From Alishewanella agri BL06 (GTDB lineage: Bacteria > Pseudomonadota > Gammaproteobacteria > Enterobacterales > Alteromonadaceae), in the NCBI RefSeq assembly GCF_000272005.1, contig NZ_AKKU01000025.1, positions 215,493 through 279,492 on the forward strand: DNA of 64,000 bases. The letters are read 5' to 3'. Every line of letters starts with the position of its first letter. The stretch's first letter is position 1. The position numbers were made by a program, and so were the translations under genes. The notes beneath the pieces are model-generated. The model was not told the DNA's origin and searched no databases. It saw only the letters and a program-made list of their open reading frames with translations. Below, in pieces: positions 22,378 through 25,873 of the stretch.

Positions 22378-23646
22378 ATGCAAGAACAAATTTATCATTT
22401 ACAGTTTGCAATGGACACCTTCTACTTCCTGATGTGTGGGGTGCTGGTGATGTGGATGGCGGCAGGCTTTTCGATGCTGGAAGCCGGCTTGGTAAGAGCG
22501 AAGAATACCACCGAAATTCTGACTAAGAATATCGCGCTGTACTCGATTGCTTGCATTATGTATTTAATCTGTGGCTACTACTTTATGTACGATGGCGGCA
22601 TTTTCCTGCAAGGTATTGCTGAAATCGACGTTGATACTACTTTAGCCTCCTTTGCGGAGCAAAATGACTTTACCGGTGATGCTGTCTATTCCGGTGCATC
22701 AGACTTTTTCTTCCAGGTCGTGTTCGTTGCTACTGCCATGTCTATTGTCTCTGGCGCCGTAGCAGAGCGGATGAAGCTGTGGGCCTTTTTAGCCTTTGCT
22801 GTGGTCATGACCGGTTTTATCTATCCGATGCAAGGTGGCTGGACCTGGGGCGGTAAAGAAGTGTTTGGCTTGTATAACTTAGGCGATCTGGGTTTCTCGG
22901 ACTTTGCCGGCTCAGGTATAGTGCATATGGCGGGTGCCGCTGCTGCGTTAGCCGGGGTATTGCTGTTAGGTGCCCGTAAAGGTAAATACAGTAAAGATGG
23001 TAAAATTAATGCGATTCCAGGCGCTAACATGCCACTGGCGGCGCTGGGCACGCTGATCCTGTGGATGGGCTGGTTTGGCTTTAACGGCGGCTCAGTATTA
23101 AAACTGGGTGATATTGCCAATGCGCATAGTGTCGCTGTGGTGTTTCTGAATACCAATGCAGCTGCCGCTGCTGGTGTGGTCGCTGCCCTGATTACCTCGG
23201 TGATCCTGTTCCGTAAAGCTGATCTTACCATGGCGCTAAACGGTGCCTTAGCCGGTCTGGTTGCTATTACCGCAGAACCTTCTACACCAACACCGCTGCA
23301 AGCCTCACTGTTTGGCGCTATTGCCGGTGTGTTAGTGGTCGCCTCTATTCTGGCGCTGGATAAAATTAAAATCGACGACCCTGTTGGTGCGATTTCTGTG
23401 CACGGCGTAGTCGGCTTATATGGTTTGTTATTAGTGCCTATCACTAATGCTGATAGCAGCTTTAGTGGCCAGATCATAGGTGCCCTGACGATCTTCGGCT
23501 GGGTATTTGCCACCAGTCTATTAGTGTGGTTCGTACTGAAGTTAGTCATCGGCATCCGGGTTAGTGAAGAAGCCGAATACGAGGGTGTTGACAGTTCAGA
23601 GTGTGGTATTGAAGCCTATCCTGAATTCGTCGCCTCGGTAAAGTAA
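22378..23646 (+). CDS. amtB: Ammonium transporter
   Basis: 422 residues with 11 membrane segments, inner membrane. Conserved features include the start DTFYFLMCGVLVMWMAAGFSMLEAGLVR, MSIVSGAVAERMKL, the FAGSGIVHMAGAAAALAG pore His region, and DPVGAISVHGVVGLYG with the second pore His. There is no extra N-terminal signal peptide, so it is an Amt form slightly different from E. coli AmtB. RBS is AAGGAG. Partner and regulator is GlnK from the same operon. Confidence 0.96.
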   Translation: MQEQIYHLQFAMDTFYFLMCGVLVMWMAAGFSMLEAGLVRAKNTTEILTKNIALYSIACIMYLICGYYFMYDGGIFLQGIAEIDVDTTLASFAEQNDFTGDAVYSGASDFFFQVVFVATAMSIVSGAVAERMKLWAFLAFAVVMTGFIYPMQGGWTWGGKEVFGLYNLGDLGFSDFAGSGIVHMAGAAAALAGVLLLGARKGKYSKDGKINAIPGANMPLAALGTLILWMGWFGFNGGSVLKLGDIANAHSVAVVFLNTNAAAAAGVVAALITSVILFRKADLTMALNGALAGLVAITAEPSTPTPLQASLFGAIAGVLVVASILALDKIKIDDPVGAISVHGVVGLYGLLLVPITNADSSFSGQIIGALTIFGWVFATSLLVWFVLKLVIGIRVSEEAEYEGVDSSECGIEAYPEFVASVK

Positions 23647-23679: not shown

Positions 23680-23779
23680 AGCCTGTGGCTGAGCCTGTGT
23701 TAGCACCGCTAATCGGGAGCACCCACTAGACTTGTCCCACCTAAACACGTCTATCCTTGTCCTTTGTCTGAATTTGACG

Positions 23780-23808
23780 CCCCGTGGTGAAAACCGCGGG
23801 GTTTTTTT
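23780..23808 (+). terminator. Rho-independent terminator of glnK-amtB
   Basis: CCCCGTGG (23780-23787) pairs with CCGCGGGG (23794-23801) around TGAAAA, followed by seven T. Confidence 0.88.
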
Positions 23809-23954: not shown

Positions 23955-24393
23955 TAAAAAGAAAGCTGGCCGCAAACTACGCGGCCACTGTTTCCTGATG
24001 CTTCCTTAGCGGTCTCTTTCCATGAGACTTATCCGGTATTCCTGTCGCATCCTGCTGCTGCTTCCTGCAACTGATTTCCGGTCAGTATTCCTGTGAGTCC
24101 TTAAGGTTGAATTCCTATTTCAACCCCTGCATCCTGCAGTCATCTCCGACGACTTGTCCGTTGATGGCTATCTTCATCCCTGTTACCATCTGTCTGGCCG
24201 CACCCTGCAACCGACATTGAATATTGCCATCCAAGGCTGTCCCGTTATGCTCTTTCATCCTGCCGAGCCTTCTTCATCCTGAAGGTGTCCAGTTTCATCC
24301 TTGAGCTTCCTGCCTGCTGTAATCCACAGCATTATACTTCCTGTGTGGCATCTTGCCTGTTACTGACTTCCTGCCAGTCATCGTTCCGTCGAT
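23955..24393 (-). ncRNA. csrB: CsrB-type small RNA (CsrA/RsmA-sequestering)
   Basis: Read on the minus strand, this stretch contains about 25 GGA motifs, many as CAGGATG, CAGGAAG or CAAGGATG, the consensus of CsrB repeats. Many sit in loops of short hairpins: CCTTC-AGGATGAA-GAAGG (plus 24265-24285 region), GACTGGCAGGAAGTCA, and GGTTGAAA-TAGGAA-TTCAACC. The 3' end is a terminator: TGGCCGC-N7-GCGGCCA (plus 23967-23987), then CTTTCTTTTT. The 5' end is estimated from a CATAAT -10-like element (plus 24400-24405) and could be up to 40 nt further out. By family it titrates the translational regulator CsrA. A GacA/UvrY-type palindrome lies about 180 bp upstream. Plus-strand frames here are not genes. 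Confidence 0.9.
23964..23987 (-). terminator. Rho-independent terminator of the CsrB-type RNA
   Basis: On the minus strand TGGCCGC and GCGGCCA form a 7-bp GC-rich stem with a 7-nt loop, followed by GCTTTCTTTTT. This fixes the RNA strand and its 3' end at about 23955. Confidence 0.85.
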
Positions 24394-24562
24394 GTGAGTA
24401 TTATGCATCTTAGCTCGTACCTTAGGGGCGATTTCTGACGATCCATAGTGTTGTCATAAGCTTGTAAGAATAAATTATTTTCTATTTTAGCTTTACAAAA
24501 CAATTTCTTAGCTTGGATTTTCTCAGTTTTTACAACAGAAAATAGCGCTTTGGCTGCAGCAT

Positions 24563-24582
24563 TTGTGAGATATATCTCACAA
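24563..24582. promoter_or_regulatory. GacA/UvrY-type upstream activating site for csrB
   Basis: TGTGAGATATATCTCACA (24564-24581), a perfect palindrome extendable by one base on each side, matches the GacA/UvrY box TGTAAG/TGTGAG-N6-CTTACA/CTCACA. It lies about 180 bp upstream of the inferred csrB start, the distance known for rsmY, rsmZ and csrB genes. Confidence 0.8.
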
Positions 24583-24636
24583 GGTTTAGGGGGATTAAGC
24601 TCATGCTGATTTACAGGTATACTGTGTACAGAGTGA

Positions 24637-24907
24637 CTAGGGCGTGTTGACGTTTGCTGCTTGTTTTTGCAGCCGTTTGGCTGGTGTTTATACAAGGCAG
24701 AGCTTGTGATGTGTAGTTATTCTACATGAACAAGCGATAACGCAGTAGAAACGCCAGCCAAACGCTGCCCGAAGGGTTCGCGCTGGCGGCGCTTTGCTCT
24801 TTGTCACTCGTCGTTTATTTAGAATAACTAAACCGCACTCCTCGTTTCGCGATCAAAGCGCCGCCAGTGCGAACAAAATCTAAGCAGCAAACGTCAACAC
24901 GCCCTAG
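24637..24907. mobile_element. MITE-like element with perfect 26-bp terminal inverted repeats
   Basis: The left end at 24637-24662 (CTAGGGCGTGTTGACGTTTG then CTGCTT) is the exact reverse complement of the right end at 24882-24907. The outer CTAG or TA may be a target duplication. Inside are nested inverted repeats: CAGCCGTTTGGCTGGTGTTT with AAACGCCAGCCAAACGCTG, CGCTGGCGGCGCTTTG with CAAAGCGCCGCCAGTGCG, and AGTTATTCTA with TAGAATAACT. There is no transposase frame. It is therefore a non-autonomous element. It ends 15 bp before the Dyp-peroxidase start codon. Confidence 0.82.
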
Positions 24908-24922: not shown

Positions 24923-25873
24923 ATGGCACGCGAACAATTAGGTATTTGTGCGGAGGCAAATTTACATGGCAGTTATCTGCTATGTAATGTACTGGACGGT
25001 CAGGAAGCGATACTGCGACAAAAACTGGCGCGGATTCCGCATATCATGCAGCGCTTGGCAGAGCACTTTTCGGAAGCGATGTTAAGCGGGTTGGTGGCGG
25101 TTAGTAGTCACTATTGGGATAACCTTTACCCGTGGCAAAGACCTGTTGGTCTACAGGCATTTCCTGTCTTGCCGTCAGAGCATTTGGCCGTAAGCTGTAC
25201 GATGGCCGATTTACTTATCCAGATCCGCTCAGATCGTTTGGATGTCAATTACATTGCGCTGCAGCAAATTCAACAGCTGTTGATGGCGAATGTTGAAGTG
25301 GTAGAGCAATTAAGTGGGTTCCGTTATCTGGATGGGCGTCAACTCACCGGCTTTATTGATGCGCCGCAAAACCCGCGCGGTCTGAAACGCCGGCAAGCAG
25401 CTTTGGTGACAGCTGACGAGTCGGCAGTATTTGCCGGCGGCAGTTATGTGCATTTTTATCGTGCCAGTCTGGATCTAAAACACTGGCAACAGCTCACCTT
25501 ACCGCAACAGGAAGATATTCATGGTTATGTTAAGCTGGATGCGAAGCCGCTGAGCATGGCGCGCTTGCAGCCGAATAGCCACCTGTTATGTTGTCAACTT
25601 AATGAACAGCAGCAGTTGCCTATCTTGCAGCAGAATATGCCTTTTGCACATAACAGCAATCAAGGTTGCCTGCATTTAAGTTTTAGTCAGCAGCCGGAGC
25701 ACTTTGTCCGGCAATGGTGTTATCGCCTGGGTCTAAACGAGGGGCGTTACTATGACAGCCTGCTGGACTATTATCGTATCGATCTGGCAGCCGCCTATTT
25801 TGCACCCTCTGTAAGTTTTTTAGAGGCTGCGGCGCATGGCAGTTTAAACGCTACCGCCAGCGACGTTTATTGA
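24923..25873 (+). CDS. Dyp-type peroxidase family protein with altered distal site
   Basis: 316 residues, typical of class-B Dyp peroxidases. The family motif reads GFIDA (143-147; usually GFIDG), keeping the distal Asp D146. The proximal heme His is probably H220 in PNSHLLC. The distal stretch ILQQNMPFA (234-242) has Gln236 where the family has Arg (ILRDN or ILRRS), while Asn238 is kept. Loss of that Arg abolishes or lowers peroxidase activity in studied homologues, so the role may differ. No signal peptide. AGGGAG lies just before the start, right outside the MITE end, so the native promoter was probably displaced. Confidence 0.88.
   Translation: MAREQLGICAEANLHGSYLLCNVLDGQEAILRQKLARIPHIMQRLAEHFSEAMLSGLVAVSSHYWDNLYPWQRPVGLQAFPVLPSEHLAVSCTMADLLIQIRSDRLDVNYIALQQIQQLLMANVEVVEQLSGFRYLDGRQLTGFIDAPQNPRGLKRRQAALVTADESAVFAGGSYVHFYRASLDLKHWQQLTLPQQEDIHGYVKLDAKPLSMARLQPNSHLLCCQLNEQQQLPILQQNMPFAHNSNQGCLHLSFSQQPEHFVRQWCYRLGLNEGRYYDSLLDYYRIDLAAAYFAPSVSFLEAAAHGSLNATASDVY

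Follow-up and report, generated by a model that had tools for sequence, protein, structure and literature searches.

The small RNAs that sequester CsrA are described in several gammaproteobacteria. In E. coli, the site TGTGAGAGATCTCTTACA upstream of csrB is bound by UvrY and is centred at -183/-182 (PMC4682653). The centre is at -182.5 when recomputed on the K-12 record. In Shewanella oneidensis, the RNAs CsrB1 and CsrB2 are about 420 nt long, contain many AGGA/ARGGA motifs and have a UvrY box upstream; their transcription needs BarA and UvrY (PMC3171408). A duplicated rsmX in Pseudomonas is also a published case. Among open-licence PMC papers, none on CsrB in Rheinheimera or Alishewanella was found, and CsrA in combination with Rheinheimera apparently gave nothing on topic.

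The window analyzed here is a stretch of 64,000 nucleotides from Alishewanella agri BL06. An earlier note had read one apparently empty region of it as a CsrB-type regulatory RNA. The minus strand of this region very probably carries a csrB gene, which would be activated by BarA/UvrY and whose RNA would sequester CsrA. The coordinates of the region in the earlier note, 23955-24393, are accurate within a few bases; the putative promoter and the UvrY box lie outside of it, at 24400-24581 (Table 1).

Table 1. Features of the csrB locus and of a second candidate RNA gene in the same genome
Feature	Position	Strand	Remarks
amtB, ammonium transporter gene	22378-23646	+	convergent with the csrB RNA
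Terminator-like site	23779-23802	+	between amtB and the csrB RNA
CsrB-type sRNA gene, about 440 nt	23955..24395	-	GGA bias, RF00018 match; putative start, end set at the terminator-like hairpin
Intrinsic terminator-like hairpin TGGCCGCG-TAGTT-TGCGGCCA	23967..23987	-	8 pairs, then T-rich tail GCTTTCTTTT
GGA-loop hairpin GTCTC-ATGGAAA-GAGAC	24012..24028	-	hairpin scan; helix 10 of the pair count
GGA-loop hairpin CCTTC-AGGATGAA-GAAGG	24268..24285	-	in the segment most like the Rfam CsrB consensus
GGA-loop hairpin ACTGGC-AGGAA-GTCAGT	24362..24378	-	local hairpin scan
-10-like GCATAAT	24400..24406	-	recurs at equal distance from the box in the genus
UvrY/GacA-type box TGTGAGATATATCTCACA, perfect 18-bp palindrome	24564..24581	.	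about 179 bp upstream of the putative start
MITE-like element, inverted ends	about 24637-24907 or 24635-24906		separates the box from the peroxidase gene
Dyp-type peroxidase gene	24923-25873	+	divergent from the csrB RNA
Probable csrC	own genome C17, L019:1501-1990		UvrY-type box TGTAAGAGATCTCTCACA, 8 GGA, terminator-like hairpin

GGA motifs, folding and covariance models

In 23955-24393 (439 nt), 26 GGA motifs are found on the minus strand and none on the plus strand. These include 15 AGGA, 11 CAGGA, 4 CAGGATG and 4 CAGGAAG, in agreement with the earlier note, which had put the number at about 25 and many of them in the two longest forms. In other 439-base stretches of the window, the minus strand has at most 11 GGA (counted beyond the csrB locus and a 439-base margin) and the plus strand has a maximum of 15. 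No ORF of at least 60 aa is contained in 23955-24393; an ORF of 105 aa, without any Pfam match, reaches into its first 16 nt.

The GGA motifs tend to be located in hairpin loops, as had been proposed. Local hairpin loops (negative energy, stems of at least 3 pairs) hold 14 of the 26 motifs in the 442-nt minus strand at 23958-24399. In 200 dinucleotide shuffles of the csrB strand the loops hold 3.7 +/- 2.0 GGA with a maximum of 9, and these shuffles are also poorer in GGA (mean 14.8 vs 26). The folding of the 446-nt csrB strand beats that of 100 shuffles with a z of -3.5. Purines make up much of the strand (142 A and 136 G of 439), so its GGA richness could be an artefact of composition or belong to a purine-rich remnant without function. 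However, 2000 mononucleotide shuffles give 13.6 +/- 3.0 GGA and never more than 24, the motifs are sited in loops, and the box, the terminator stem and the peroxidase neighbour recur across the genus. This explanation is therefore extremely improbable.

No match was found in the window at the Rfam gathering cut-off. In a permissive search, the CsrB model (RF00018) matches 24396-24104 with a score of 25.1 bits (E 7.3e-5), whereas the gathering cut-off is 71 bits. No other CsrB match in the genome is better; the model covers the 5' two thirds of the RNA, and the Rfam consensus has GGACACCUCCAGGAuGGAGAA where the RNA has the block GGACACCUUCAGGAUGAAGAA. The covariance-model check suggested in the earlier note thus fails at the gathering cut-off and succeeds in the permissive search, which leaves the CsrB reading standing. 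The features of this strand argue strongly for a member of the CsrB/RsmZ class; since 25.1 bits is below the cut-off, it stands outside the curated Rfam family.

Scores below the cut-off are the rule in the genus. A CsrB match at E <=0.05 is present in 31/31 genus genomes, with a best E per genome of 2.1e-12 to 6.8e-5, and none of the 31 reaches 71 bits. The strongest has 50.1 bits and the best match of the window is the weakest among them. In the control genomes, 3/14 match CsrB at E <=0.05 (E. coli, B. subtilis and Thermotoga maritima), one of them over the cut-off. A CsrB-type locus of Shewanella sp. ANA-3 with the same box scores 54.6 bits and is also below the cut-off. At the gathering cut-off, a search of 19 loci gives three tRNAs and nothing else.

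The locus could instead encode an RsmY/RsmZ- or CsrC-type RNA, which would be a CsrA sponge of a different sequence family. The RsmY model (RF00195) does match the 3' part of the RNA weakly, with 15.9 bits (E 0.24) and a cut-off of 57 bits that is not reached; the CsrB match is better and spans the 5' two thirds. The CsrC model (RF00084) has no row at the locus in the permissive search, from which one lower-scoring overlapping clan match is omitted, and the csrC position elsewhere in the genome already holds a second, shorter RNA. A sponge of another family is very unlikely, and a CsrB-type RNA is the preferred reading.

Promoter region, terminator and gene neighbourhood

The GC-rich terminator with a T-run described in the earlier note is present, judged by sequence only, as a terminator-like hairpin followed by a T-rich tail. 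The scan for such sites finds 6 in 1251 bases vs 1.5 expected. Its GGCCGC..GCGGCC stem is found in 20/21 csrB-like genus loci, which is an unselected figure. The terminator is invariant in an alignment of 11 sequences, drawn from the 28/104 rows that pass both the -10 and the terminator patterns; since the rows were filtered on the terminator pattern beforehand, this invariance is partly a result of selection.

The sequence GCATAAT is a possible -10 element. At the matching distance from the box, 12/21 csrB-like genus loci have GCATAAT and 4 more have GCATACT. If it is taken as the -10, the csrB start would be near 24393 and the centre of the palindrome at about -179. A consensus scan gives no sigma-70 site on the minus strand, and there is no clear -35; a missing -35 plausibly fits an activated promoter. 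The box and the site bound by UvrY at E. coli csrB are equal at 15/18 bases. The spacer between box and promoter has 1 possible IHF-like site with at most one mismatch, vs 0.38 expected. A loose form of the box pattern occurs at 5 places in the genome, and the reversed pattern at 1. Of these 5 places, two fit the stricter form, and both precede GGA-rich strands.

The csrB RNA is not part of the amtB operon, since the two are convergent and a terminator-like site lies between them. On the other side, the peroxidase gene precedes argR, which is on the minus strand. Neighbouring ORFs are presumably acnB, glnK, mdh and ispB, which are putative names. The location between a nitrogen operon and a peroxidase gene had been claimed correctly; the peroxidase is usual in the genus (21/24) and amtB is found in 11/21.

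The distance from the UvrY box to the peroxidase gene is 342 bp in the window, and 53-89 bp in 20 other csrB-like genus loci when counted to the first aligned peroxidase residue. A MITE-like element lies in this interval in the window. It has 64 matching pieces in the genome, many of them partial, and close to the probable csrC there is a further copy (C17:138926-139196), downstream of a polA-like frame.

Relatives within and beyond the genus

The box pattern TGTRAGATATATCTYACA, a palindrome with R/Y at one position per arm, is found in 24/31 genus genomes. One box locus was read per genome, and ten or so genomes have two boxes. A downstream GGA excess of at least 10 is present at 21/24 of these loci, and a Dyp-type peroxidase gene adjoins the same 21. 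The ammonium transporter gene is seen on the other side in 11/21 csrB-like loci (3-kb loci), and several longer relatives, L088 and L099 among them, lack it. The neighbourhood is thus constant on the peroxidase side and variable on the amtB side. The three low-GGA loci (L024, L032 and L033) are away from the best CsrB match of their genomes. In G131 and G017, the low-GGA locus adjoins a second, weaker CsrB match, which in G017 is at the csrC position.

In named genomes, 112 exact-box stretches are found. With an excess defined as at least 12 GGA and at least twice the number on the other strand, 47 of the 80 stretches tested (L045-L124) have a downstream GGA excess and 33 do not. Shewanella loci with the box show the excess in 6/6 cases. 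The conservation that the earlier note had called for is thus observed, as relatives also have GGA-rich strands preceded by this box.

In closer relatives the RNA itself can be aligned. The two closest, which are almost identical to one another, keep the csrB RNA at 89% mean column identity. In the three closest sequences, 96.1% of the cells are paired and 3 pairs are changed on both sides; one of the changes, in the two closest relatives, is in the hairpin counted as helix 10. Since 17/500 shuffles also reach 3 such pairs, the covariation is suggestive only. The gene order is conserved in Alishewanella longhuensis, where amtB is 92.7% identical. Plain DNA comparison within the family gives matches in 9/118 genomes, including the own, and all of those in other genomes are short pieces; searches with the box pattern and with the covariance model extended further. 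The comparison with phage records gave no match.

Two relatives have csrB-type loci expanded by tandem repeats; the ends of these loci follow from a GGA-density rule made for this analysis. In the locus of Rheinheimera sp. 4Y26 (L072:7315-7680), a 50-nt unit with GGA hairpins is repeated 7.4 times in tandem, and the locus has a total of 43 GGA in about 635 nt. The locus of Gayadomonas joobiniege G7 (L054:830-1300) has 4.7 tandem copies of a 101-nt unit and 67 GGA in about 795 nt. These loci are a more surprising by-product than the csrB gene of the window. It is a tentative idea, and rather doubtful, that CsrB capacity is tuned by the copy number of tandem repeats here and in related lineages, and that the UvrY box also controls the peroxidase gene.

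Regulatory circuit and comparison with known systems

The genome encodes the other parts of the circuit. CsrA is encoded on C12 (E 1.2e-24), and so is a BarA-type sensor, the sensor domain of which scores over its cut-off. UvrY is encoded on C1 and is 61% identical to E. coli UvrY, far above 27 weaker relatives. The UvrY-type box at the expected distance and the csrA, uvrY and barA-type genes give independent support to the csrB reading. The CsrB/RsmZ-type architecture proposed in the earlier note is likewise supported by the GGA loops, the terminator-like hairpin, the permissive CsrB match and the recurrence in relatives.

A second box-bearing RNA on C17 is probably csrC by position, since E. 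coli csrC is located between yihA and yihI. The candidate has a cytochrome c gene on one side and a yihI-like gene on the other, and a yihA-like GTPase gene is nearby. It has 8 GGA ahead of its terminator-like hairpin, and its folding is only modestly above that of shuffles (z = -1.8). The CsrB model matches it weakly (20.9 bits, E 9.2e-4); the CsrC model has no match on its strand and 8.4 bits on the other strand. The box pattern was not found at E. coli csrC.

A GGA-rich sequence beside csrA (C12:137644-137989, L001:640-985) was a candidate for a third sponge RNA, but was rejected as part of a dispersed repeat; its fold has a z of -1.9. The genome has 24 pieces that match the repeat, and 31/31 genus genomes have matches to it. 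It adjoins csrA and three tRNA genes and contains GGA-loop hairpins such as AAACTTCAGGATGAAGTTT. The repeat itself might bind CsrA.

The predicted mechanism follows the known circuit. BarA would activate UvrY, and phosphorylated UvrY would bind the palindrome and switch on the minus-strand promoter, with a start near 24393. The transcript would be an untranslated RNA of about 440 nt that ends at the GC-rich hairpin. Of as many as 26 GGA sites that it would offer, about 14 would be located in local hairpin loops. The RNA would bind several CsrA dimers and draw them off their target mRNAs. Transcription, the start site, control by UvrY and the binding of CsrA are all predictions from the features above.

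Most likely, the csrB gene of the window is an ordinary regulatory part that had been left unannotated; the BarA/UvrY/CsrA circuit is already well known. Its significance is that part of a global regulator of carbon metabolism and lifestyle is located in a genus where the curated RNA library makes no call. The genus set of CsrB-like loci could be used for extending the Rfam family.

The RNA resembles E. coli CsrB (RF00018) in its number of GGA motifs (26 in about 440 nt here, 22 in 369 nt in E. coli), in its AGGA hairpin loops, in the GGACACC-CAGGATG block and in an 18-bp UvrY palindrome near -180. In contrast to E. coli CsrB, it is too diverged for the Rfam cut-off, and it lies between amtB and the Dyp peroxidase gene, whereas E. 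coli csrB lies between syd and yqcC. E. coli CsrC belongs to the same class of CsrA-binding RNA; however, its likely counterpart is the C17 locus, and the RNA of the window is longer and CsrB-like. The S. oneidensis RNAs CsrB1 and CsrB2 differ in their gene neighbours, and the RNA of the window, unlike them, is a prediction from sequence. They share with it the approximate length, the many AGGA motifs and the upstream UvrY box.
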